Shown: piece after piece, positions 16,962 through 52,247 of the stretch | Layout: the number at the start of each line of letters is the position of its first letter | Numbering within the stretch: the stretch's first letter is position 1 | Assembly: GCA_902500825.1 (NCBI GenBank) | Contig: CABVRX010000028.1 | Coordinates: forward strand, 1 to 53,069 | Source: an uncultured Nitrospira sp. | GTDB lineage: Bacteria > Nitrospirota > Nitrospiria > Nitrospirales > Nitrospiraceae | Direction: 5' to 3' | DNA length: 53,069 nucleotides | The notes under the pieces: generated by a model | What the model was told of the DNA's origin: nothing | Database searches by the model: none | Seen by the model: only the letters and a program-made list of their open reading frames with translations | Program-made: the position numbers and the translations under genes

Positions 16962-19547
16962 TCACGGCCACCAGGTTGCGACGTCTTGAACGGCGTGAAG
17001 TGTACTTTCTAGAGCACGTCTCTGCCCCAATTTCTCGATGACCGATATCGACGCAGATAAAGATAGGTCATCCATCAACTCTTTTCGGGTATGTGTTGAG
17101 TGGTGCAAGGTCGAACGCCATGCAGAATAAACCTGATTGAGTGAAAGGGTTCTAAGGTGGGGAGCGAGAGCTATTAGTAGCTGCATGCGCTCAAACTTGA
17201 TATCGAGCGCATGGGCGGTAGCCAAGACGGCTTCAGGTTGGTAGGGGACCAGGGCTGCGAGTACTTCGGTGCGACTCCAGTTGTCAGCAAGCTCTTGGGT
17301 GGCAGCCAACACGGTCTCGGGTTGGTAGGGGGCCAAGGACGCCAACACTTTTGCGAGGTCGTAAGTGCCAGTGCTCTCTCGGGCAGCCGCCAGGGCCTGG
17401 TCCAGTATTAGCGGTCGTTCCTGTTGCGACACATGTGGCGCTAAGGCCACCAGCACCTTTGCTCGCCAGTAATGGTCATGAATTTCTTGCGCCGCCGCCC
17501 ACACAATTTCTGGTTGATAGGGGGCCAGAGCTGCGAGCACTTTTGCACGACTATGGTGGGCAGCGAGCTTTTGAGTGGCAGCCAACACGGCCTCGGATCG
17601 GTGCGGAGCTAGGGCTGTGAGTACCTCAGCGCGAGCCTCGCTGTCATCGAGCTCTTTAGCCGCAGCTAACACAGCCTCTGGTCGATACGGGGCCAAGGCT
17701 GCCAGCACGCCAGCGCAGGCCGTACTGTGATGGAGCGTTTGGGCCGCAGCCAACACGTCTTCGGGTCGGTGCGAAGCTAGAGCTATGAGTACTTTAGCTC
17801 TAGCCTCGCTATCATCGAGCGCTTGGGCGGCCACCCAGGCTTGGTCGAATACCACTTCTCGTTCTTGTTGCGAGACATACGGGGCGAGGACTGTCAGGAA
17901 CCTTGCGCGAGCTTCGATGTCATTGAGCACGCGGGCCGCCGACCAAGCCTGGTCCGATACCAGCTCTCGTTCTTGTTGCGACACATGTGGCACTAAGGAC
18001 GCCAACACCGTTGCTCGGGCGTCATGGTTATGGAGTTCTCGCGCCGCAGCTAACACGATCTCCGGCTGGTAGGTAGCCAGGGCCGCCAATATTTGTACTT
18101 GGTCATACTCAGCGAGCGCTCGTGCTGCCGCAAAAGCCTGGTCCAGCACCACCGATCGCACCTGTCGCGGCACGTGGTGAACCAGGGCTGCAAGCACTTT
18201 TGCTCGAGCCTTGATGTCATCAAGCTCTGAGGCAGCGGCGAACACAGCCTCAGGTCGGTAGGGGGCTAGGGCTACCAGCACGGTTGCGCGATCCCAGTCT
18301 TCATCGAGCTCCTGAGTAGCAGCAAACACAGCTTCGGGTCGGTATGGAGCCAGGGTAGCGAGTGCCGCTGAGCGATTCCCGCTGTGATCGAGCGCTTGCG
18401 CGGCAGCCCAGGCCTGATCCAGCAGCAACTCTCGATCCTGTTCTGACGCATGCGGTGCTAAAGATGTCAACACCGTTGCCAGGGAGTAATGATCATGGAT
18501 TTCTTGCGCAGCAGCCAATACGGCTTCCGGTTGGTAGGGGGCCAGAGCTTCTAGTACGCTTGCGCGAAAGGAGTCGCCACTGAGTTCTCGGGCAGCGGCG
18601 AAGACGGCTTCGGGTTTGTGCGGAGCCAGGGCCCTCAAGGGTCCACTACGTTCCCATGGCCATTCGAGCCTTTGCGCGGCCGCCAAGGCCTGGTCCAGTG
18701 CCAGCGTGCGTTCCTGTTGTGGCATATGTGGAGCTAGTTTTGCGAGCAACTCGGCCCGATCTACCTGAGTCCCGATCTCTTGGTCATCGAGCGCTCGGGC
18801 GACAGCTAGTGCTTCTACTACCGCCTGTTCTAGAAAATCAGCGGGTATGTCTGTTTCAGTGGCAAGACGGACTAGGGTGTTAGTACGAATAAAGACATTT
18901 GGATTCTGTCGTGCATAGACGAGGCCCTGCTGGAAGGTCCATTTCTGGTATTTGATCAGTTGCACGATCAACTCGACCGGCAGGTTCAAGGCCAGACTGT
19001 TGATACTGGTCCAGACAAGGGCGCAGCGGATTTCGTCACCGATGCGAGGAGCAACCTCGCCTTTTGCGATGGCCTGTTCGTTTTCCTGCTCGGCGGCCTT
19101 CCATGCCCGTTCGACATCGTTGAGAAATCCGGCAAAGCTTCCTTCGAAGGCTTCCCAGGCTTTGCTCCACCCCTGACACACAAGCGTGAGCAACATTTCC
19201 GCCTTGGCATGGGCTTGCTCCAGATGGGCGCCGTAGTACTGCACCATGTAGGCCTGCGCTTTGGCGGGAAGGAGTGTTCCCTGCTCCAGCGCCTGGAGGG
19301 TGTCTCGACCCCATGCCAGAAACTCCTTCTCCCATTTGTTTTGTTCCGCACGGGACAGCTCCTGCTTGAAGTAGTCACCCAATCTGGGATGACTGAAGAC
19401 ATAGCCATGAAGCTTGCCATCGCCCACGATGAACCGATCGAGGGGCTTCAGTGCTTCAGCGAGGTCCCACGTGGAAGACAGTTGAGTCAGACGCAGTAGC
19501 GCTTCTTGATCCAACGGCCCCAGGGCACAGGCGAACACGCTCAGCAC
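16962..19547 (-). CDS. C-terminal solenoid part of a DUF4062-NACHT protein, separated from its N-terminal part by an in-frame TGA
   Basis: An 861-codon open frame from a GTG at 19547. Residues 1-260 are helical and continue the winged-helix and helical region that follows a NACHT domain (LGPLDQEALLRL, HPRLGDYFKQEL). From about residue 265 to 817 come some 17-18 helical-hairpin repeats in two lengths: 28 residues (VLAALAPYRPEAVLAAAKEL type) and 36 residues (with an eight-residue insert, HVSQQERELV-DQA). Together they should form an alpha-solenoid, probably the sensor. The frame is the same as that of the upstream gene, and 21 sense codons join them after the TGA. The GTG has no ribosome binding site, so independent translation is doubtful. 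Confidence 0.75.
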   Translation of the reverse strand: MLSVFACALGPLDQEALLRLTQLSSTWDLAEALKPLDRFIVGDGKLHGYVFSHPRLGDYFKQELSRAEQNKWEKEFLAWGRDTLQALEQGTLLPAKAQAYMVQYYGAHLEQAHAKAEMLLTLVCQGWSKAWEAFEGSFAGFLNDVERAWKAAEQENEQAIAKGEVAPRIGDEIRCALVWTSINSLALNLPVELIVQLIKYQKWTFQQGLVYARQNPNVFIRTNTLVRLATETDIPADFLEQAVVEALAVARALDDQEIGTQVDRAELLAKLAPHMPQQERTLALDQALAAAQRLEWPWERSGPLRALAPHKPEAVFAAARELSGDSFRASVLEALAPYQPEAVLAAAQEIHDHYSLATVLTSLAPHASEQDRELLLDQAWAAAQALDHSGNRSAALATLAPYRPEAVFAATQELDEDWDRATVLVALAPYRPEAVFAAASELDDIKARAKVLAALVHHVPRQVRSVVLDQAFAAARALAEYDQVQILAALATYQPEIVLAAARELHNHDARATVLASLVPHVSQQERELVSDQAWSAARVLNDIEARARFLTVLAPYVSQQEREVVFDQAWVAAQALDDSEARAKVLIALASHRPEDVLAAAQTLHHSTACAGVLAALAPYRPEAVLAAAKELDDSEARAEVLTALAPHRSEAVLAATQKLAAHHSRAKVLAALAPYQPEIVWAAAQEIHDHYWRAKVLVALAPHVSQQERPLILDQALAAARESTGTYDLAKVLASLAPYQPETVLAATQELADNWSRTEVLAALVPYQPEAVLATAHALDIKFERMQLLIALAPHLRTLSLNQVYSAWRSTLHHSTHTRKELMDDLSLSASISVIEKLGQRRALESTLHAVQDVATWWP
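17097..18755 (-). repeat. Tandem coding repeats (84 and 108 bp units) encoding the solenoid
   Basis: About 18 degenerate tandem units lie inside the gene. Short units are 84 bp (28 codons) and long units 108 bp (36 codons). Long units occur at positions 1, 4, 7, 9, 10 and 15 of the array. The last unit is divergent. The consensus begins VLAALAPY and ends with a variable linker such as DDSEARAE. Several neighbouring units share long stretches at the DNA level, so unequal recombination could change their number. Confidence 0.8.
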
Positions 19548-19610
19548 CGTCTGGACATTCCGTTCTTTGAGTGGTGACTCTTTTCCCCAGAGTGTGCGTT
19601 GATCCGCCCA

Positions 19611-19613
19611 TCA
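19611..19613 (-). other. In-frame TGA separating the two halves of the NACHT gene
   Basis: The minus-strand codons read GAC CGG TGA TGG GCG GAT CAA. Frame is maintained on both sides: the first base of the TGA (19613) lies 66 bases, exactly 22 codons, upstream of the GTG at 19547. A single G-to-A change in a TGG Trp codon would explain it. No further stop occurs until 16962. Confidence 0.8.
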
Positions 19614-20951
19614 CCGGTCGAAATAGCCCTTTAAACCTGGCTGAAACTTCCGCAGATCCTCGGGCTTCAGTGAACCCACGAGCTCTCTGCGTGTCCGCAG
19701 ATCGTCCACGTACAGGCGTATGAGGAGTGGGTCGCCTTCACTCAACCGATAGAGTTCAGCGATGATACCGACCTGTGTTCCCAGTTGTGCGAGGGGAAGT
19801 CCCGTACTCTCCAGCGCGCGAGCGACACCTTCTTTGGTGAGTGTGTCGAGGTTGTACGACGTTGCGAGGTCTGGCCGTTCCCATCCCAAGCGACGGAGCC
19901 AGTCGCGAGCATCTTCATCGCCAGCCCGGTAGCGAGCCGAGACGACGACGCGGACGTGGTCAGGCGGGGGAAGCGGAAACAGATCCGGGCCCGCTTCCCA
20001 ATCTGCTGCTTCGTCCAACCCGTCCAGCACGACGACGAGTCGTTCGCCATTTGGTAAGGGACGGCGCAGATAGTCCGTGACCAGCCCACGCCACGTCTCG
20101 ACGGAGGTGGAGGGGGTGTCAGGGATCTTGTCTGCATGCAGCCTGGCGAAGCGAGCCGCGAGGGCGGCGAAGGTGACGCCGGACAGGTTCGTTCTAAATC
20201 GGATGCTGATGGGGACAAAGACGAGCGCAGTGTTGGTCCTTGCAAGCACTTGACGTGTCCACCGGACCAGCAGAGCCGATTTCCCGCGACCGGCGGGGGC
20301 TGCCATCATGAAATACGGTGGTGCGGTTGGATCATCCAACCATGTATCCAACGCTTTCAGGTCTTTTTCGCGTCCACCGAAAGGAACAGGTGCTTTGGCC
20401 GTGCCGAGGTACTCACCGAGAAAATTCTCGATGCGCCCCGCATAGTCGAACGGCAATGAGCCGACTCCGTCTACGTAGACCTGGGCTCCATACCGATCCA
20501 ACAACCAGTTGCTGAGATCGGCTGTCACGCGGGCGGCGAGATCGTCGGGGCTGGTGAACGGGCTGGTGCCCAGGGCATGGTCTTTTCGTAGCTCTTCTCT
20601 CCAGGTGGCTAGCTTCTCCTGTTTCTCTTTTTCTGGATCGCGGGACACTGCCTGGATAGTTTTTTTATCCTTGAAGTAGATGAATCGAGGAAGGGGCTTC
20701 TCTGATGCTCGCTGGTATTCCTCCTTCGTGATGCCCGAACCATAGCGTCCACCGATGATGCCAACATAGACATCGCTGCGGTCCACTTCTTTCAGCGAGA
20801 CCTCACACGTAGTCTCATCCCGGCTGCCGAAATACTCCATGCCATTCAGCTTGGTCTGGTGCATGCGCTGGAGCGCCTTCTCCACGGCGAGACGCTCCGG
20901 CTGGAGATCGAGCCAGGTGGAACTGACGAACACTTTGACAATAGGCTGCAT
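19611..20951 (-). CDS. DUF4062-NACHT NTPase, N-terminal part; open frame ends at a suspect TGA
   Basis: A 446-residue frame. Residues 5-100 are a DUF4062 domain (VKVFVSSTWLDLQPERLAVE, then DVYVGIIGGRYGS), the usual N-terminal effector or adaptor of large STAND NTPases. The NTPase has Walker A at 218-225 (APAGRGKS) and Walker B with the NACHT-style acidic run (VVVLDGLDEA, about 306-315), plus an arginine finger-like VVVSARYR. The frame stops at TGA 19613-19611 right after GLKGYFDR, yet the next codons in the same frame read WADQRTLWGKES and continue without a stop into the solenoid frame. The natural product is therefore probably one chain of about 1,330 residues. STAND proteins of this design are often linked to self/non-self or phage sensing; that function is inferred. 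Confidence 0.8.
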   Translation of the reverse strand: MQPIVKVFVSSTWLDLQPERLAVEKALQRMHQTKLNGMEYFGSRDETTCEVSLKEVDRSDVYVGIIGGRYGSGITKEEYQRASEKPLPRFIYFKDKKTIQAVSRDPEKEKQEKLATWREELRKDHALGTSPFTSPDDLAARVTADLSNWLLDRYGAQVYVDGVGSLPFDYAGRIENFLGEYLGTAKAPVPFGGREKDLKALDTWLDDPTAPPYFMMAAPAGRGKSALLVRWTRQVLARTNTALVFVPISIRFRTNLSGVTFAALAARFARLHADKIPDTPSTSVETWRGLVTDYLRRPLPNGERLVVVLDGLDEAADWEAGPDLFPLPPPDHVRVVVSARYRAGDEDARDWLRRLGWERPDLATSYNLDTLTKEGVARALESTGLPLAQLGTQVGIIAELYRLSEGDPLLIRLYVDDLRTRRELVGSLKPEDLRKFQPGLKGYFDR

Positions 20952-43637: not shown

Positions 43638-46600
43638 ATGAGTCCTACGAGTCACCGCTCTGAATTGGACCTGCTGCGCAGGCAAGTCGCTGATCTTACC
43701 CGTGAACTTGCCGAACGGGACCGAGTCCTGCACGAGCGGACTCGCCACATCCACGTCGCACAAGCGCTTGCTCACCTGGGAAGTTGGAATTGGGACATCA
43801 CAAGCGGCGAGGTGGAATGGTCGGATGAACTCTACCGGATCTTCGGCTATGACCCTCACTCGCGAGAGATGACCTTCGACAGCTTTGTGTCGGCTGTATT
43901 CCCCGACGACCATGATCGAGTCCTGGCGTCGATCGATGACGCGTTGGCGGAGACCGCACCATACGACATGGAATGCCGAATCGTCCGTCCCGACGGCGAA
44001 GTGCGTACGATTCATTGCTGCGGCGAGGTCGTGCGTGATGGGAGCGGCCAGCCTCTGCGTATGTCCGGGACAGCCTTGGACATTACTGATCGCAAGCGGA
44101 TGGAAGCGTCGATACGGGAGAGTGAAGAATGGTACCGGACTTTGGTTGAGCTTTCACCGTCGGGGGTATTTGTCTTCAGTGAAGGACGAATAGCCTACGT
44201 TAACCACACGGGCGCCGTTCTCTTGGGAGCGAAAGATGCGCAGGAGGTGCTGGACCGGCCGACGTTTGCGTTCATCCATCCAGACTATCACCAAGACGTT
44301 CGTAAGAATGTGGAACGCCTGCTGAGCGGCGGAGTGTCTGTCCATAGTACGGAGCGAATTTATCTGAAGCTGGATGGAGCACCGATTCCGGTCCAAGTCG
44401 AGGCAGCTCGGATTACGTGGAACGATAAGCCGGCTATCCTGGGCCTGTTCTCCGATATCACCGAGCGCAAACAGGCGGAACAGACCCTCTGGAAGAGTCG
44501 TCAAGCAATCCGCGCGCTCTATGATATCTCGTCGGCACCGGGACAGTCATTCAAGGAACGGATCGAAGCGCTGCTTCAACTCGGGTGCCGTTTCTTCGAC
44601 CTGCCGATCGGGATGGAAACCTTCGTCCGGGGCGATGAGCTGGAGGTGGGGCAAGTGAACGCGCCCGGCATGGCGTTCCATCCGGGCATGCGCGTCTCTC
44701 GAAGCCAGGCGTACTGCGATGAGTCCCTTCGCAGGAGCGGGCCGGTATGTTTCGAGCACGCGGGCGCTTCTCCGGAATGGCGGCGACACCCAGGCTACGC
44801 TGCATTAAAGTTGGAATCGTACATCGGAACTGCGATCAACGGCCTGGAACGTACCTACGGGACCCTGTGTTTTGCGAGTGTCGAACCCCGCAATAAGCCG
44901 TTTACCGATTCTGAAAGGGATTTCATTCAACTCATGGCGCGGTGGCTTGGCGGTGAGATGGATCGCCGATCGGCTTTAGACGCCCTGCGTCAGAGCGAGG
45001 AACGATATCGGACACTCTATGATGAAACTCCCTCCATGTATTTCACTGTGAATGGAACCGGCATCATCAAGTCCGTCAACCAGTATGGCGCGCAATACTT
45101 GGGCTATCGTGTCGAGGATCTCGTCGGGAAGTCGGTGGCGGGGATCTTCTTCGAAGGAGATCGAGAGCGCGTATGTGCCGAGATGGAGGCCTTCTTTCGT
45201 TGCCCTGAAGGGGTTGCGCAATGGGAATTTCGCAAGGTGCGAAGCGATGGCGCGGTATTGTGGGTACGCGAGATCGCGCGTGTGGTGCAAAGCGGAGAGG
45301 GAGAAGCATTAGCCCTGATCGTGTGCGAAGACGTCACGGAACGCAAGCGAGATGAGGACCGTGTGCGGGAAATGAATCTGGCCTTAGCCCAGGCCATGCC
45401 AGGCATTGCTCGAGTCGATGTCGATGGCCGCTATCTGGAAGTGAACCAGCTCTATGCAGCGATGCTGGGGTATGAACCGTCTGAGTTGCTCGGACGACCA
45501 TGGGAGCCGACCGTGCACCCTGAAGACCTGTACATCGCTCAACATGCCTATGGGCAGCTGCTGGAAAATGGAAAAGCAGAGTTCGAGTGTCGGGCTGTGC
45601 GGAAAGACGGTTCCACCTTCTTTAAGCAGGTTCTGGTGGTGAGGAGCACACTGTCCGTCGGCGGTGTCCTTGGACACCATTGTTTCATGCGCGACATCAC
45701 GGAGCGCAAGCAGTCGGAGAAGGCATTGGCCGACCTTAACGCCACGCTGGAACAGCAAGTATGCGATCGGACCCAAGCGCTGCGCCGGAGCGAGGAGCGC
45801 TTTCGACAATTCTTCGACAATGCGCCGAATGTGACCGCTCTGAAAGACCACAATGGGCGTTATGTGTATACCAATCGACAGTTCGACAAAGCATGCAGAC
45901 TTTCTCCAGGCATAGCCATAGGGAAAACGGATGAGGAAGTGTTTTCTTTCGAACAGGCGACTCTGTTTCAATCGCACGATCAACAGGTGTTACTCAATGG
46001 CCGGGGACAGGAATTCGAGGAGGTGACATCCCAGGAGGATGGATCACATATCAGTATCGTGGTGAGATTCCCTGTAACCGATGCGTCAGGCCAATTCTCC
46101 GGCCTGGGCATCATTGCCACAGATATTACGGATCGAAGGCGAACGCAGGGGCGACTGAGGCTGGCCGAAGAGGCTCTTCGAATAGCCCATGATGAGTTGG
46201 AACGGAAAGTCATTGAGCGCACCGCTGAATTGCAGGCCAGCGAAGAGCGCTATGCGCGCGCCACGGCCATCGGCAAGGTTGGAGTATGGGAATTGGATGT
46301 CATCAAAGGTGAATACCGCGCAGATGCTAATCTCAAAGCCCTCTTTGGCTATGCTCCCGAAGAACTCTCCACGGATCCCTATGTGTGGCTGAACCTGGTC
46401 TGTCCGGAAGACCAGCCGATCGCCATGAAAAACTGGGAACTGGTCCAAAGCGGAGCAGCCGATGCGTGTCACTACGAGCTGAGAATGGTCAAGAAAAGCG
46501 GATCCATGGTGTGGACTGATGTTCGAGGCCATAGCGTTCGTGATCAGACCGGGCGGTTGACGCACCTGATTGGCGCCACCGTCGATATCACCGAGCGTAA

Positions 46601-48776
46601 GCAGGCGGAGCGGGCTCTACGCGAAAGCGAAGAACGATTTGCCAAGGCCTTTCGCACTAGCCCTCATCCGATCGGAATCACCGAGGTGGCAACTGGTCGC
46701 TGTCTCGAGGTGAATGACGCCTGTCTGCAGCTATTCGGGTTTCATCGCGAGGAAGTGATCGGAAACACCACGTTGATGCTCGGTATCTGGCCGACTCTCG
46801 AAGATAGAGTGCGGGTCATCGAGCGCTTGAAAGCTGGGCAGCAGGTGCGCAATATGGAGTTTGTCTTAAAGACCAAATCGGGTGTGTTGCGCCACCTTCT
46901 GGCCTCCGCTGATCTCGCGGAGCTCAACGGAACGCTCTGTGTTGTGACGGTCGCTAACGACATTACGGACCGCAAGCAAGCCGAGGAAGCACTACGCATC
47001 AGCGAAGAGCGTTTCGCTAAGGCATTCAAGGCTAGTCCCCATCCGGTCGTTATCAGTGAGTTGGACTCTGGTCGAGTGGTGGACGCTAATGATGCCGCAT
47101 ACCGGATGTTCGGATATCGCAGGGAAGAAGTTGAAGGACAGACCACGTTACAGGTGGGACTCTGGCCTTCGCCGGAGGAACGGGCTCGATTCGTTGAACA
47201 GTTGAAGCGTGTAGGGTCAGTCCGGAACGTGGAAGTCACTCTGCGGAGCAGAGATGGGGAAATCCGCCAGTGTCTGGTGTCATCAGAGCTGATCGAGCTG
47301 AATGGCAAGCAATGCAGTGTGACGGTTGGGGATGATGTCACTGAAAGCAAGCGCATGGAACGAGCGCTTCGGTTGACCCAGTTCTCGGTGGATCAGGCCG
47401 TCGAGACGATCTTATGGTTGGACCCGAGTGGTCGAATATTCAATGTGAATGAGTCCGCCTGCCGAATGTTGGAGTACTCACGCCAGGATCTGATGACCAT
47501 GACCGTGCATGATATCGACCCGAATTTCCCCGTGGGCCGATGGGTGGATCATTGGAATTACTTGAAACAACAGGGAGCGTTGACATTCGAAGCAAAGTTT
47601 TGGTCACGAGCTGGAAGGATCTTGGAAACGGATGTCACCGTCAAATATCTGCAGCATGAAGGGAAAGAGTACGGCTGTATGATCTTACGGGACGTGGGAG
47701 AACGGAAGCGGGCTGAGGCGGAGCTTCATCGCTCCCATACGTTCTTACGACAAGTTATCGATACTGACCCAGACCTCATCTTCGCCAAGGATCGCGCAGG
47801 ACGTTTTACCATGGCCAACAAGGCAGTGGCCGAGTGGTATGGGTCTACGGTGGAAGGCCTCATCGGGAAATCGGATGCCGACTTCAATGCCAATGCGGAG
47901 GAGGTGGAGCACTTTCGGAAGAGCGATCTTGAGGTGATTCAGTCCGGAAGGGATCGGTTCATCCCGGAAGAGCGGATCACTGATGCAGGGGGAAGGATAC
48001 GCTGGTTACAGACGGTCAAGAGGCCGATTTGTGATGACCAGGGGCGAGTCCATATGGTGCTCGGAACTGCGACCGATATTACTGAACGTAAACGAATGGA
48101 GGAGATACTCCTGCAGCGGGAACGAGACTTGAGCGCGGCACTTCAAGAACGGGAACGAATCAGTCAAGATCTCCACGATGGTATTCTCCAATCCTTGTAC
48201 GCAGTCGGGCTCGGGTTAGAAGCGTGTAAGCCACTGATCAAGAAACAACACGATCGTGTGGCGGGGAAATTCATGGCCACGTTAGATCACGCCATTGGGC
48301 AGCTCAACCAAGTCATGACGGAGGTCCGGAATTTTATTGCCGGACTCGAATCCCAAGTGATGCAGGGCGGAGACTTCTCGACCGCCCTGCGGACCATGGT
48401 TGAAACGATGTCCATCTCCTCTTCCGCCAGATGTCGAGTGAGGATCGACGACGCGGCCGCACAGCGGCTTTCCACCGAACAGGCCCTCCACATTATCAAC
48501 ATCGTACGGGAGGGGGTAAGCAATTCACTGCGCCACAGCCGTGCGAAACAGATCACGGTCTCGCTCCGAGATCTCCTCCGTTCAGATCGTCTTGCCGTGA
48601 CGGATGACGGCATTGGGTTTAATACACGCTCGGTTCATGGGGTTGGTCATGGATTAATCAACATGGCGGCACGGGCACAAAAAGTCCGCGGCTTGTTCGC
48701 CATCCAGTCGAAACCTGACAAGGGGACGAGGATCTCACTCGATCTTCCAAAGGATACGCACTATGCTCACAACTAA
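43638..48776 (+). CDS. Large soluble sensor histidine kinase with ten PAS domains and one GAF domain
   Basis: A 1,712-residue kinase without transmembrane segments, so its signals are cytoplasmic. Domains by approximate residue: PAS1 40-155, PAS2 163-280, GAF 290-437, then PAS3-PAS10 starting near 457, 581, 721, 871, 1000, 1125, 1248 and 1370. PAS7 and PAS8 are close copies (FAKAFRTSPHP and FAKAFKASPHP). The transmitter is the NarX/DegS type: HisKA_3 with H1513 (RISQDLHDGILQSLYAVGLG) and an HATPase with REGVSNSLRHSRAKQI and DDGIGF. It overlaps the regulator gene at 48763 by 14 bases and should phosphorylate its D61. The start at 43638 has AAGGAG upstream. Confidence 0.92.
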   Translation: MSPTSHRSELDLLRRQVADLTRELAERDRVLHERTRHIHVAQALAHLGSWNWDITSGEVEWSDELYRIFGYDPHSREMTFDSFVSAVFPDDHDRVLASIDDALAETAPYDMECRIVRPDGEVRTIHCCGEVVRDGSGQPLRMSGTALDITDRKRMEASIRESEEWYRTLVELSPSGVFVFSEGRIAYVNHTGAVLLGAKDAQEVLDRPTFAFIHPDYHQDVRKNVERLLSGGVSVHSTERIYLKLDGAPIPVQVEAARITWNDKPAILGLFSDITERKQAEQTLWKSRQAIRALYDISSAPGQSFKERIEALLQLGCRFFDLPIGMETFVRGDELEVGQVNAPGMAFHPGMRVSRSQAYCDESLRRSGPVCFEHAGASPEWRRHPGYAALKLESYIGTAINGLERTYGTLCFASVEPRNKPFTDSERDFIQLMARWLGGEMDRRSALDALRQSEERYRTLYDETPSMYFTVNGTGIIKSVNQYGAQYLGYRVEDLVGKSVAGIFFEGDRERVCAEMEAFFRCPEGVAQWEFRKVRSDGAVLWVREIARVVQSGEGEALALIVCEDVTERKRDEDRVREMNLALAQAMPGIARVDVDGRYLEVNQLYAAMLGYEPSELLGRPWEPTVHPEDLYIAQHAYGQLLENGKAEFECRAVRKDGSTFFKQVLVVRSTLSVGGVLGHHCFMRDITERKQSEKALADLNATLEQQVCDRTQALRRSEERFRQFFDNAPNVTALKDHNGRYVYTNRQFDKACRLSPGIAIGKTDEEVFSFEQATLFQSHDQQVLLNGRGQEFEEVTSQEDGSHISIVVRFPVTDASGQFSGLGIIATDITDRRRTQGRLRLAEEALRIAHDELERKVIERTAELQASEERYARATAIGKVGVWELDVIKGEYRADANLKALFGYAPEELSTDPYVWLNLVCPEDQPIAMKNWELVQSGAADACHYELRMVKKSGSMVWTDVRGHSVRDQTGRLTHLIGATVDITERKQAERALRESEERFAKAFRTSPHPIGITEVATGRCLEVNDACLQLFGFHREEVIGNTTLMLGIWPTLEDRVRVIERLKAGQQVRNMEFVLKTKSGVLRHLLASADLAELNGTLCVVTVANDITDRKQAEEALRISEERFAKAFKASPHPVVISELDSGRVVDANDAAYRMFGYRREEVEGQTTLQVGLWPSPEERARFVEQLKRVGSVRNVEVTLRSRDGEIRQCLVSSELIELNGKQCSVTVGDDVTESKRMERALRLTQFSVDQAVETILWLDPSGRIFNVNESACRMLEYSRQDLMTMTVHDIDPNFPVGRWVDHWNYLKQQGALTFEAKFWSRAGRILETDVTVKYLQHEGKEYGCMILRDVGERKRAEAELHRSHTFLRQVIDTDPDLIFAKDRAGRFTMANKAVAEWYGSTVEGLIGKSDADFNANAEEVEHFRKSDLEVIQSGRDRFIPEERITDAGGRIRWLQTVKRPICDDQGRVHMVLGTATDITERKRMEEILLQRERDLSAALQERERISQDLHDGILQSLYAVGLGLEACKPLIKKQHDRVAGKFMATLDHAIGQLNQVMTEVRNFIAGLESQVMQGGDFSTALRTMVETMSISSSARCRVRIDDAAAQRLSTEQALHIINIVREGVSNSLRHSRAKQITVSLRDLLRSDRLAVTDDGIGFNTRSVHGVGHGLINMAARAQKVRGLFAIQSKPDKGTRISLDLPKDTHYAHN

Positions 48777-49419
48777 AACACAAGCCATTCGAATATTGCT
48801 CGTCGATGATCATGAGGTCATTCGAGTGGGATTGCGCACGGTGCTCGGCCAAACGCACGGTGTCACCGTTATTGGGGAAGCGGGTACCATGACGGACGCC
48901 ATCCAGCAAACGCAGAGATTGAAGCCCGATGTGATCTTGATGGATGTCCGACTGCCGGACGGCTCCGGCGTGGATGCTTGTCGGGAGATCCTCGGGACGT
49001 TTCCCGGGACACGGGTGATTTTCCTGACGTCCTACGCCGATGACGACTCCGTTCTCGCCGCAGTGCTGGCAGGCGCCCATGGCTATGTCCTCAAAGAAAT
49101 CGATTCATCCGCATTGCTGGAAGCCATCCGCTCCGTTGCCAACGGGCAATCGATTTTGGACTCCAGCGTAACCGAACGCGCTCTTCGATGGTTGAGAGGG
49201 CTTCACGACCTGCCGTCGACTCCTGGTACCGATCAACTGTCCTCACAGGAAGAACGGGTCGTTGCGCTGGTTGCCGAGGGAAAGACCAATAAGGAAATCG
49301 CCGTTGCGCTGGGACTCAGCGATAAAACCGTTAAGAATTACCTGGCAAACGTATTTCAAAAGCTTCGCATTACTCGACGTGCGCAGGCAGCCGCCTTTTT
49401 TGTGAAACGGCAAGGATGA
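48763..49419 (+). CDS. NarL/LuxR-family response regulator
   Basis: A 218-residue regulator. The receiver (about 8-125) has LLVDDHEVIR and phospho-acceptor D61 (VILMDVRLPDGSG), with the YVLKE lysine. The C-terminal helix-turn-helix (about 150-215) reads LSSQEERVVALVAEGKTNKE, then IAVALGLSDKTVKNYLANVFQKL, a standard GerE/LuxR domain. The sequence is close in style to DevR/LiaR. The four-codon overlap with the upstream kinase shows the pair is translated together. A pair of direct repeats upstream of the next kinase could be one of its targets. Confidence 0.94.
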   Translation: MLTTKTQAIRILLVDDHEVIRVGLRTVLGQTHGVTVIGEAGTMTDAIQQTQRLKPDVILMDVRLPDGSGVDACREILGTFPGTRVIFLTSYADDDSVLAAVLAGAHGYVLKEIDSSALLEAIRSVANGQSILDSSVTERALRWLRGLHDLPSTPGTDQLSSQEERVVALVAEGKTNKEIAVALGLSDKTVKNYLANVFQKLRITRRAQAAAFFVKRQG

Positions 49420-49502
49420 GCAACAACATTCGGCTCTACCGCTTTTAGGTGCAAAAATCTAAGTTTGCCGCTATCCTTCATATCTGGGCCTTCCCCTTGC
49501 AT

Positions 49503-49519
49503 TTCATGTAAGTTCATGT
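49503..49519 (+). promoter_or_regulatory. Direct repeat TTCATGT at one-turn spacing, candidate operator
   Basis: TTCATGT occurs at 49503-49509 and again at 49513-49519, a 10-base period. It lies in the 155-base gap between the NarL-type regulator and the hybrid kinase at 49575. Side-by-side heptamers on one DNA face are common binding sites for response regulators. Confidence 0.3.
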
Positions 49520-49574
49520 CAAGTGCTTCGTATTTCTAACTACGAGGCGTGCGCACACCGAGAGGTTGTCCCGC

Positions 49575-51380
49575 ATGACCGCTGGTCTTTTCCTAGGATT
49601 GCTTCTGTTTCTGAGTTTCTTTTTGTGGATATTTATTCGACAGCGCCAAGAGAACGTCCTGAACTCAGCCGTCATTGCGGCGACCAATTGTAGTGTGCTC
49701 GTGACCGATGCCGCGTTGCCCCATCATCCTATCGTCTATGTCAATCCTGCCTTCCTGTTATTGACCGGCTACGGTGAGAAAGAGGTGATCGGTCAAAGGA
49801 CGTCGATCTTGACCGGCCCGAATACAGATCGGGGCTCGATGGAAAAACTTGCAATGGCCCTTCAAGATGGATGGGCCTGTCGGGTGCGGTTGTGTCATTA
49901 CCGCAAGAACGGCACCTCATTTTGGAATGATGTGTCGCTGTCGCCGGTGAAAGACCGTTTGGGTCGCGTGACGTCGATCGTGTGGACGATGAGTGAAGTG
50001 TCACAACGTGAGGAGGTCAGAGAAGCGTCTGACGGGACTCAGTACCAAGATATCGTTGCTCGTCAGCAGGCCGAACAGGCGTTCCGGGACAGCGAGGCAC
50101 GGCAGGATCTTGCTCTTGTGGTCGATCGCAAGAAAGCAGATGTCCACCGTCTCGCACCGGCGAGGATGGAAGCGATCAGCACCTTTGCCGGTGGCATCGC
50201 TCACGAGTTGAACAACGGCCTCACGGCCGTACTTGGCTTCAGCGAGTTGGCGCTTCCGTTGATTCCGGCTGAAAGTAAGACGCATCGCCATATCAGGCAA
50301 GTCATCGCGGCCGCGAAAAAATCCCGGGAGTTGATCCAGCAGCTGCTGGCGTTCGGTGGTCAGAATGACCAAGGTCGTTGCCAACTATCATTCCATTCCT
50401 TGGCGAAAGAATCCCTCAGGTTTCTTCGCCCGACGATCCCCTTATGGATTGAGCTCAGAGCGCAGATTGCGCACACGACCAACCCTATTTCGGCCAATGC
50501 CGTGCAGATGCACGAGATGATTTTCTGCCTGATCGATAGCGCCCTCCGTACGATGCGGCAGACAGGAGGAACGCTTGAGGTTCAACTTCAGAATCGGGAG
50601 TTTGTCACGGATCAGATCATGCCGGTCGGTCGACTCGCCGCAGGATGGTACGTCTGCTTGAGCGTTCGTGATACAGGCGAGGGCATGGATCCTGAGAGGC
50701 TCAACCGATTGGTCGGCTCGTTGTTGATGCCAGAGGCAATCAGCGAGGAGCAGGGCGTGGGACTAGGGGTGGTCTACGGTATTGTCACGACTCATGGCGG
50801 TACCCTGACGGTTGAGAGCCAAGTTGGTGTCGGCACGACGGTATCGGTCTACCTTCCCGCTTTCCCGGCTTCTGGGCCATCGACGACTCAGAAAGATGAT
50901 TCGGTTCCTCACGGACACGAAAGTATCTTATTCGTCGACGACGAAGACTCCGTTGTGCGTTTCGGAAGAGAGGTATTGGAATCTCTGGGTTACTTTCCGG
51001 TGGTATGTAGAACGGCTGCCGAAGCATGGGAACTCTTTCAAGCTGAGCCCAAGCGGTTCGACTTGCTGATCACCGATCGGGCGATGTCCGGCATGAGTGG
51101 AGATCGGCTCGCTAGAGAATGTCGACGACTCCGACCGGATCTCCCGATTATTGTCTGTAGCGGGTCCAATGGTGTATCTGGTCTGGATGACACCTGTTCG
51201 CAGGACGCTACCGAATACCTTCTCAAACCGCTCACGTTGCATGAACTGGCGTATGCCATTCGCCGAGCATTGGCACAATCTCCCGCCCATCCGGAATGTA
51301 CTGATGCATCGCCTAATTTAGGCCCAAGACCATCAAGGATATCGATTGAGGTGTCGGATGCCGTCGGTCCTCGTGGTTGA
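49575..51380 (+). CDS. Hybrid histidine kinase with LOV-like PAS domain and C-terminal receiver
   Basis: A 601-residue protein. One N-terminal transmembrane segment (about 2-22) is followed by a LOV-type PAS (about 30-140): HPIVYVNPAFLLLTGYGEKE, then GQRTSILTGPNTDRGS, then HYRKNGTSFWNDVSLSPV. The LOV motif normally has the photoactive Cys in NCRFLQ; here T76 takes its place. The HisKA has H210 (GGIAHELNNGLTAVLGFSELAL). In the ATPase domain the G boxes are present (DTGEGMD, GVGLGVVYGIV), but the N box reads EMIFCLIDSALRTM, with S322 where the Mg-binding Asn is expected. The receiver (about 460-580) has D501 (LLITDRAMSGMSG). The kinase may be weak or inactive. A TTG at 49566 is a less likely start. 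Confidence 0.88.
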   Translation: MTAGLFLGLLLFLSFFLWIFIRQRQENVLNSAVIAATNCSVLVTDAALPHHPIVYVNPAFLLLTGYGEKEVIGQRTSILTGPNTDRGSMEKLAMALQDGWACRVRLCHYRKNGTSFWNDVSLSPVKDRLGRVTSIVWTMSEVSQREEVREASDGTQYQDIVARQQAEQAFRDSEARQDLALVVDRKKADVHRLAPARMEAISTFAGGIAHELNNGLTAVLGFSELALPLIPAESKTHRHIRQVIAAAKKSRELIQQLLAFGGQNDQGRCQLSFHSLAKESLRFLRPTIPLWIELRAQIAHTTNPISANAVQMHEMIFCLIDSALRTMRQTGGTLEVQLQNREFVTDQIMPVGRLAAGWYVCLSVRDTGEGMDPERLNRLVGSLLMPEAISEEQGVGLGVVYGIVTTHGGTLTVESQVGVGTTVSVYLPAFPASGPSTTQKDDSVPHGHESILFVDDEDSVVRFGREVLESLGYFPVVCRTAAEAWELFQAEPKRFDLLITDRAMSGMSGDRLARECRRLRPDLPIIVCSGSNGVSGLDDTCSQDATEYLLKPLTLHELAYAIRRALAQSPAHPECTDASPNLGPRPSRISIEVSDAVGPRG

Positions 51381-51729
51381 TGATCAGGACCAGGTTCGTC
51401 AGCTCATCCGGGAAACGTTGGAACAGGCCGGTTACGAGGTCGAAGAGGCCCGTGATGGGAAAGAGGGACTTGACCGGTATCGCGCTAAATCAACGGATCT
51501 TGTCATCATGGATATTCTCATGCCGGATCAAGACGGATTGGAGGCCATCACGACGCTCTGCCGGGAGTTTCCTGGTACTCGCGTCATTGCAATGACGGGG
51601 GGGAGTGATGCGATCGGCATCCTCAATTTTTTGGACGTCGCAAAAATGCTTGGAGCCAGGCGGACCCTTCAAAAGCCATTCGAACTGAAAATCCTGCTCG
51701 ATACGGTTGCTGCCGAACTCACCGTCTAG
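51358..51729 (+). CDS. Single-domain response regulator (CheY-like receiver)
   Basis: A 123-residue receiver without an output domain. It has VLVVDDQDQVR, phospho-acceptor Asp in LVIMDILMPDQDG near residue 51, the Thr of AMTGG and the KPF lysine (LQKPFELK). It starts 23 bases inside the end of the hybrid kinase gene, with GAGGT before the ATG, so translation is coupled. It would take phosphate from the kinase or its receiver in a relay, or act by protein contact. Confidence 0.9.
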   Translation: MPSVLVVDDQDQVRQLIRETLEQAGYEVEEARDGKEGLDRYRAKSTDLVIMDILMPDQDGLEAITTLCREFPGTRVIAMTGGSDAIGILNFLDVAKMLGARRTLQKPFELKILLDTVAAELTV

Positions 51730-51818
51730 ACAGCTCACCACGCGCTCAACGTTCTTCGCATTGACATCACGATCAGGCGCCGTCAGACTCCGCATTCCAT
51801 GCCTGGATCTTGCTCACC

Positions 51819-52247
51819 ATGAGATTTCTCAATCTGTCTCTGGGAACCCTCGTTGTCGCAATCGGGTTCTGGCTCATATGGGGAGGATCGGTTTCTCCGG
51901 TCGTCGTTGTTGGATGGACTCTGAGCGTAGGGCTCTTCTTGTGGTTCATGACGAAGTCGATTACGGAAGTATGGGCGTGGACTACCTTGTTGCTCGGTCT
52001 TGAAAGCTTTGCCTGGCCGTTGATGTTGATGATTCAACTCAAGGGTCAGGCGGAATCACCTCCAGAATCTGAGATGGGGACGATCCTTTCAGCCGTCGTG
52101 CTGGGTCTCTTCTCGTCCGTGTTTTGGATTTCGTTTGCCTACGGCCTGTTCCAACGAGCACGTAAGCCGGATTCGGCTCTATCCGTGGAGCGGGCTCCGA
52201 CAGTGCCGATTTCCGGAGCACACAAAAAGAAGAAGGGGCTGATGTAG
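51819..52247 (+). CDS. Small membrane protein of unknown function
   Basis: A 142-residue protein with four likely transmembrane helices: LSLGTLVVAIGFWLIWGG, VVVVGWTLSVGLFLWFM, TTLLLGLESFAWPLMLMI and ILSAVVLGLFSSVFWISF. The C-terminal tail is hydrophilic and ends in a Lys-rich stretch (HKKKKGLM), probably cytoplasmic. It lies 89 bases after the lone receiver and may belong to the same transcript. I do not recognise a family. Confidence 0.7.
   Translation: MRFLNLSLGTLVVAIGFWLIWGGSVSPVVVVGWTLSVGLFLWFMTKSITEVWAWTTLLLGLESFAWPLMLMIQLKGQAESPPESEMGTILSAVVLGLFSSVFWISFAYGLFQRARKPDSALSVERAPTVPISGAHKKKKGLM

Follow-up and report, generated by a model that had tools for sequence, protein, structure and literature searches.

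A LOV-like input domain with a probably dismantled flavin site in a Nitrospira sensor kinase

The sensor gene and its neighbourhood

The window, by which we mean the whole stretch of 53,069 nucleotides analysed here, carries the gene of a sensor protein within a group of signalling genes (Table 1). The reading frame of the sensor is open from either a TTG at 49566 or an ATG at 49575 to the stop at 51378-51380, and residues are counted here from the ATG. An N-terminal hydrophobic stretch is followed by a LOV-like PAS domain, a DHp, a HATPase and a receiver, and from the first of these the protein is probably anchored in the membrane. Taken whole, it finds its top NCBIfam match in PRK13557 (273.7 bits, below the cut-off of 631), a LOV histidine kinase with a receiver, whose domain order we take to be LOV, HisKA-type kinase, receiver, the same as in the window sensor. 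The window sensor differs from PRK13557 in having no adduct cysteine and few remaining FMN ligands, in its hydrophobic N-terminal stretch and in a degenerate N-box. A second PAS domain of about 110 residues, found in three aligned orthologs, is missing in frame at about 50110-50160 of this single draft assembly.

Table 1. Features of the sensor gene and of the genes around it.
Feature	Position	Strand	Basis
Giant multi-PAS/GAF HisKA_3 histidine kinase (start codon assumed)	43638..48776	+	ORF, Pfam
NarL/LuxR-type response regulator, upstream	48763..49419	+	Pfam
Sensor protein, 601 aa from ATG	49575..51380	+	ORF; Pfam PAS_9, HisKA, HATPase_c, Response_reg
N-terminal hydrophobic stretch GLFLGLLLFLSFFLWIFI, probable membrane helix	49584..49640	+	read from sequence
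LOV-like PAS domain	49665..50015	+	Pfam, NCBIfam, PDB sequence matches, AlphaFold model, Foldseek
Thr76 (ACG), place of LOV adduct Cys	49800..49802	+	gap-free alignment
His108, place of Gbeta FMN-ligand Asn	49896..49898	+	alignment with orthologs and controls
Trp137-Thr138-Met139: Trp at pocket Gly place, Met at active-site Gln place	49983..49991	+	ortholog/control alignment
DHp (HisKA) with HELNN motif	50157..50378	+	Pfam
HATPase domain, N-box FCLIDSAL	50499..50861	+	Pfam, residue scoring
Receiver domain, C-terminal, Asp and Lys retained	50925..51260	+	Pfam, residue scoring
CheY-like single-domain response regulator	51358..51729	+	ORF, Pfam
Small conserved protein, hydrophobic by eye, downstream	51810..52247	+	ORF

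The CheY gene starts inside the sensor gene, its ATG at 51358 giving a 23-base overlap that would account for the conservation of SDAVGPRG at the C-terminus of the sensor. The surroundings are shared by orthologous loci. At all 40 loci compared (from 40 of 58 genomes) there are, upstream, a NarL-type regulator and a match to the giant PAS kinase, while CheY lies downstream at 36, three of the four misses being cut by contig ends, and the small protein at 37, with all three misses contig-cut. The LOV-like domain is missing from 21 genus genomes, and in nine of these the NarL gene was matched with an E value of 1e-75 or lower; it is followed by another DHp-HATPase protein with a PAS-like N-terminus (judged by eye) in six and by a longer DHp-HATPase kinase in one, and the last two have no frame above 250 codons between NarL and CheY. 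A scan of 48700-49700 found no promoter or terminator.

The giant kinase contains about nine PAS domains and a GAF domain, and between species it is 31-78% identical over the best segment, against 73-94% for the adjacent NarL regulator. Elsewhere in the window, on the minus strand at 16962-20951, two adjacent long ORFs show by eye a P-loop-like stretch in one case and many degenerate repeats (YRPEAVLAAA...) in the other.

Kinship of the domain to LOV

The hallmark motifs from which a preliminary description named this domain LOV-like lie in the open frame where it had placed them. Its list holds as to their presence; one of them, GPNTDRGS, is the stretch just past the NCRFLQ motif, and the place of NCRFLQ itself reads RTSILT, with most of the motif lost and not the cysteine alone.

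By sequence and predicted fold the domain is LOV-like, and in sequence it stands nearer to LOV domains than to PAS domains of the ordinary kind. Its best PDB sequence match has an E value of 1.3e-26, and the best 60 of 167 PDB matches are all LOV proteins or LOV constructs, judged by names or titles. With the domain as query the four best NCBIfam families are PRK13559 (93.7 bits), the YtvA family (91.1), the blue-light LOV kinase (89.3) and PRK13557 (86.6), where PRK13559 and PRK13557 are presumably LOV kinases; the generic PAS model scores 41.4 bits and NifL 40.9. The AlphaFold model (pLDDT 92.1) has MrLOV (9vf7) as its top Foldseek match (E 2.7e-13, 42% identity). Against flavin-binding LOVs the model gives Z scores of about 20, and against the PAS domains of KCNH channels (hERG, EAG, ELK) 19-20; because the KCNH domains score like LOVs, the structural match cannot decide whether flavin is bound.

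In a tree of 71 domains all 22 Nitrospira representatives form one clade (support 100/99). The tree includes ten rows of ordinary PAS domains from the adjacent giant kinase, of which eight stand apart from this clade and two fall on the LOV side. We give this tree modest weight, as support and not proof, since it has 114 columns only, long branches and those two misplaced rows. A closer relation to ordinary PAS domains, one of two results that the preliminary description said would overturn its reading, is rejected on the family scores, the PDB matches and the tree, and Foldseek points the same way.

Loss of the flavin site

Residue 76 is a threonine and aligns without gaps with the adduct cysteine of the solved LOV domains MrLOV (9vf7) and CrLOV1 (1n9l), as first described. 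The loss of this cysteine, which the same description proposed to trace through LOV families, is common to the Nitrospira clade, yet it is no plain Cys-to-Thr switch. Among 59 distinct ortholog domains, drawn from 100 rows that include the same genomes twice, the place holds Thr in 39, Ser in 7, Met in 4, Leu in 3, Cys and Asn in 2 each, and Tyr and Ala in 1 each, a variability that argues against a dedicated role of Thr76. Both orthologs with a cysteine there (L050 and L054, GQTCTIL) lack the remainder of NCRFLQ.

None of the 59 orthologs retains any of five further residues, numbered here as in YtvA: within NCRFLQ the Asn (N61), the Arg (R63) and the Gln (Q66), and beyond it the Gbeta Asn (N94) and the active-site Gln (Q123). 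The domain therefore has neither the adduct cysteine within NCRFLQ nor the FMN-ligand residues (Asn, Arg, Gln, two Asn, Gln) of a LOV photoreceptor, and of these six ligands the window retains the Hbeta Asn alone; one FMN-ligand Asn is present in 47 of the 59 orthologs. For comparison we used 47 distinct Cys-bearing controls chosen as [NDST]-C-R, which have the arginine by construction, with three further Cys rows set aside. An Arg stands directly behind the Cys place in all 28 Cys-LOV relatives, which were not selected for it, and in none of the 59 orthologs. The Gbeta Asn occurs in 47 of 47 controls and in no ortholog, 54 of which have His instead; its place, that of His108 in the window, corresponds to N89 of CrLOV1. 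The phosphate-side Arg is found in 41 of 47 controls and again in no ortholog.

The pocket itself is altered. At the pocket Gly place, two residues before the active-site Gln, 46 controls have Gly (35), Ala (10) or Ser (1), while the orthologs have Trp in 59 of 59, a count made after dropping three rows (two distinct) by a filter that used this Trp itself; before dropping, Trp and Met stood in 59 of 61 distinct rows. The dropped rows belong to the multi-PAS kinase, which these loci encode in other reading frames, and no locus loses its own ortholog row through the filter. The active-site Gln is present in 37 of 46 controls and missing from nine that still bear the Cys; all 59 orthologs have Met. 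The place of the AsLOV2 N414 relay residue is uninformative, with G, P or A in controls and S, G or C in orthologs. The spacing of the scored places equals that of the FMN-pocket residues of PpSB1/W619_1-LOV, in which G114, Q116, N85, N95, Q57, R54 and R70 contact or line the pocket (PMC5314338).

Natural Cys-less LOV domains (LOV*), such as that of halobacterial BAT, are likewise LOV-related PAS domains without an adduct cysteine in a signalling protein (PMC4682037). They are defined there as keeping nearly all other conserved residues, at least nine of the other ten, and the BAT domain binds flavin; in contrast, of the nine residues named in that paper the window keeps three, besides having Trp in the pocket. 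The orthologs keep two (12 domains), three (40) or four (7) of the nine, and 28 Cys-bearing relatives have seven to nine. Redox PAS domains with FAD (NifL, Aer, MmoS) share the PAS fold and a signalling setting, in their case redox sensing. However, the triad that holds FAD in NifL/Aer-type domains (PMC10468136, PMC9668731; H53, W70 and N85 in Aer, PMC9668731) is absent, its His, Trp and Asn being found at the LOV Cys, +17 and +32 places in 0, 0 and 0 of 59 orthologs, and the NifL model scores well below the four best families.

The PAS domains of KCNH channels offer a closer likeness, having a LOV-type fold together with replaced flavin ligands, as has the window domain. They lie within the LOV cluster of PAS domains, and in EAG1 the polar flavin-binding residues have given way to hydrophobic ones (PMC10468136). 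In an alignment, Trp137 and Met139 would stand at the places of the hERG cavity residues L127 and F129. The hERG cavity is small and apolar (PMC3598652). The KCNH domains differ in being eukaryotic ion-channel domains of 19-28% identity to the model, with separate replacements. In the same large survey the Cys is present in 57% of the LOV cluster, KCNH domains included (PMC10468136), so that Cys-less members are common there and the Nitrospira family is not a new kind.

Distribution of the orthologs

With an ortholog domain as query, matches of at least 62% identity are found in 58 of 79 genus genomes. In the order, where 235 genomes were searched, the 27 matches outside the genus reach at most 43% identity, and of 20 of these loci inspected 15 have the full motif with Cys and five do not. 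Fifty-five loci come from named genomes, 21 of them from other bacteria and 34 orthologs (L094-L127) from genomes named Nitrospira, save three Nitrospiraceae and one Nitrosospira (isolate CMX); N. moscoviensis is among the genomes with an ortholog. We propose that the flavin-site loss predates the divergence of the present Nitrospira orthologs. In another genus of the same family two loci (L083 and L093) carry a LOV-like domain whose Cys place is taken by Trp (GQSWQILNG, GRSWQILEG); the motif may have been lost there independently.

Selection on the domain and fate of the kinase half

Ratios of dN/dS, obtained by simple counting with saturated-dS pairs omitted, are 0.195 for the LOV-like domain in 21 orthologs of 721-749 aa that contain kinase and receiver (208 of 210 pairs used) and 0.107 in 19 orthologs without the kinase ATPase and receiver (136 of 171 pairs). 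By this measure the LOV-like domain is under purifying selection and not decaying. In the same 21 orthologs the HATPase has the highest ratio of the folded parts (0.331), followed by the second PAS (0.208), the receiver (0.157) and the DHp (0.114). A His in the Abeta-Bbeta region is kept in 57 of 59 orthologs.

HATPase and receiver are found in 36 of the 59 distinct orthologs and both are absent from 20 complete ones, a third of the set; of the others one is split by a broken frame and two run into contig ends. When the HATPase-less group, with 22 loci, was checked in frame, the absence of the HATPase was confirmed in 21, the 22nd ending at the contig end, and at 20 loci the DHp is directly followed by CheY, one being contig-cut and one (L042) having no CheY gene between its DHp-only sensor and the small downstream ORF. 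The orthologs that end after the DHp are L034-L051 and L053-L055, with CheY next in 20 of these 21; a receiver match at L047 is CheY itself.

The DHp, in contrast, always keeps its phospho-acceptor His within HExNN (58 of 58 orthologs that reach it), the Glu included. In the window both N-box asparagines are replaced (codons 50526-50528 and 50538-50540), as they are in nine other orthologs. Across the 36 orthologs in which kinase residues could be scored, two of them from one genome, the first N-box Asn is present in 26, the second in 23 and the G-box Asp in 26. One subclade has the N-box FHLVDHAV and a G box that mostly reads NTGEG; its members and the window kinase are possible pseudokinases.

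In NtrB and EnvZ the DHp alone can act as a phosphatase, and within H-E/D-x-x-T/N it is the T/N that serves as the phosphatase residue (PMC3510030). That the ATP-binding half is weakly constrained, mutated or deleted while the HExNN DHp is always kept makes an output by dephosphorylation or docking likely. The motif Glu is required for kinase activity in CrdS (PMC3510030), however, and its retention, together with the 36 of 59 orthologs that have HATPase and receiver, speaks against a pure phosphatase in all species.

A putative flavin-free input to the DHp

In many Nitrospira the domain has kept the LOV shape but lost the residues that would hold flavin. It is probably no longer a light or redox sensor, and would form the remodelled input of a sensor kinase that is itself losing its catalytic half. 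The explanation we favour, and hold with reasonable though by no means full confidence, is a LOV-derived PAS domain whose flavin site has been dismantled, giving a flavin-free input to a DHp with a likely phosphatase or docking output. The dismantling goes beyond the Cys: in the window every polar FMN ligand tested is lost except one, and two pocket positions are taken by Trp and Met. Free of flavin, the domain may now act as a dimerisation or protein-contact module or as a sensor of another small ligand. Its state would pass through the linker (with further PAS domains in most orthologs) to the DHp helix pair, which would control the dephosphorylation of a response regulator or dock with it. 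The gene order suggests the CheY-like regulator of the overlapping gene as the most plausible partner. A point against this explanation is that flavin can bind PAS pockets through unforeseen contacts.

Between the two forms that a flavin-free domain could take, the one with a filled pocket, serving dimerisation or partner contact only, we put at close to even chances. Bulky residues occupy two pocket positions, and the PAS domain of dELK, of the same fold, has no preformed cavity (PMC3598652). Polar residues still stand at pocket places, though, namely His and Asn.

That the remodelled pocket instead senses a small molecule other than flavin, as suggested for KCNH-channel PAS domains, is a reading we would back at roughly one chance in three. 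The pocket changes are common to the clade (Trp and Met in every ortholog, His in 54), and within the protein the domain belongs to the better constrained parts. KCNH PAS domains of the LOV cluster with hydrophobic replacements are reported to bind a flavin analogue, and one haem, a result called inconclusive in the source (PMC10468136). Against this, we found no ligand signature, and the Trp may simply fill the cavity. Haem was dropped as a candidate: neither of the near-invariant His (57 and 54 of 59) is invariant, as a haem ligand should be.

The preliminary description had supposed a Cys-less LOV that still binds FMN, or as we would add FAD, and is reduced by light or redox state. The BAT domain is a LOV of this sort, but for the window domain the reading now appears unlikely. 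Its LOV fold and sequence kinship speak for it, as does the fact that natural Cys-less LOVs respond to reduction (PMC4682037); moreover, a ligand Asn persists in 47 of 59 orthologs, and an M. loti LOV with Met at the Gln place is still light-responsive (PMC9098866). As the loss of Gln alone is tolerated and that Asn often remains, we regard flavin binding as improbable rather than impossible. But five of the nine FMN residues are gone throughout the clade, Trp stands in the pocket, the FAD triad is absent and the residue at the Cys place varies, all of which argues against the sensing of light or redox state through flavin. That the window holds a decaying, functionless copy is very improbable. 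Its frame (622 aa) is shorter than in any other of the 36 orthologs that have HATPase and receiver, where it measures at least 695, the second PAS of three aligned orthologs is missing, and both N-box Asn are replaced, as in nine others. But the frame is open across 601 codons, the LOV-like domain is 85-90% identical to near orthologs and the CheY overlap is retained.

Extended to the genus, our explanation of a flavin-free input becomes a scenario that we offer tentatively, with the odds rather against it. A single conversion in a Nitrospira ancestor would have turned a flavin photoreceptor into a flavin-free input with a Trp/Met pocket, driving a membrane-bound DHp that is kinase-dead in many species and acts as phosphatase or phosphate relay on the CheY of the overlapping gene, and this would hold for comammox Nitrospira as well as for the nitrite oxidisers of the genus.

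Host and implications

To call the host a nitrite oxidiser, as was done at first, tells only part of the story. Its genome gives a match to PF02461 (AmoA/PmoA) at E 3.2e-99, and with an AMO-family gene present the host is probably comammox. The comammox organism N. inopinata is photoinhibited (PMC9797979), and the terms photoreceptor, flavin, LOV and sensor are absent from that paper. In the LOV and BLUF searches of the genus genomes no flavin photoreceptor emerged as characteristic of the genus: BLUF was found in one of 79 genomes, and the LOV-type matches within the genus are this Cys-less Nitrospira family. Second matches in four genomes (G005, G007, G017 and G076), considered as canonical LOV domains, proved to be PAS domains without the LOV motif. 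Among the papers listed by searches of the open-licence PMC literature, none deals in its title or abstract with a LOV-like sensor of Nitrospira; the phylum Nitrospirae is counted in a LOV/BLUF survey, according to a figure legend (PMC4844311).

For nitrifiers, a LOV-like annotation or a replaced cysteine should not be equated with light sensing. Within one genus these proteins form a natural series in which the catalytic half of a sensor kinase disappears and the sensor domain and DHp remain under constraint, and the series could be used to test both the change from a flavin sensor to a flavin-free one and the role of DHp-only proteins.
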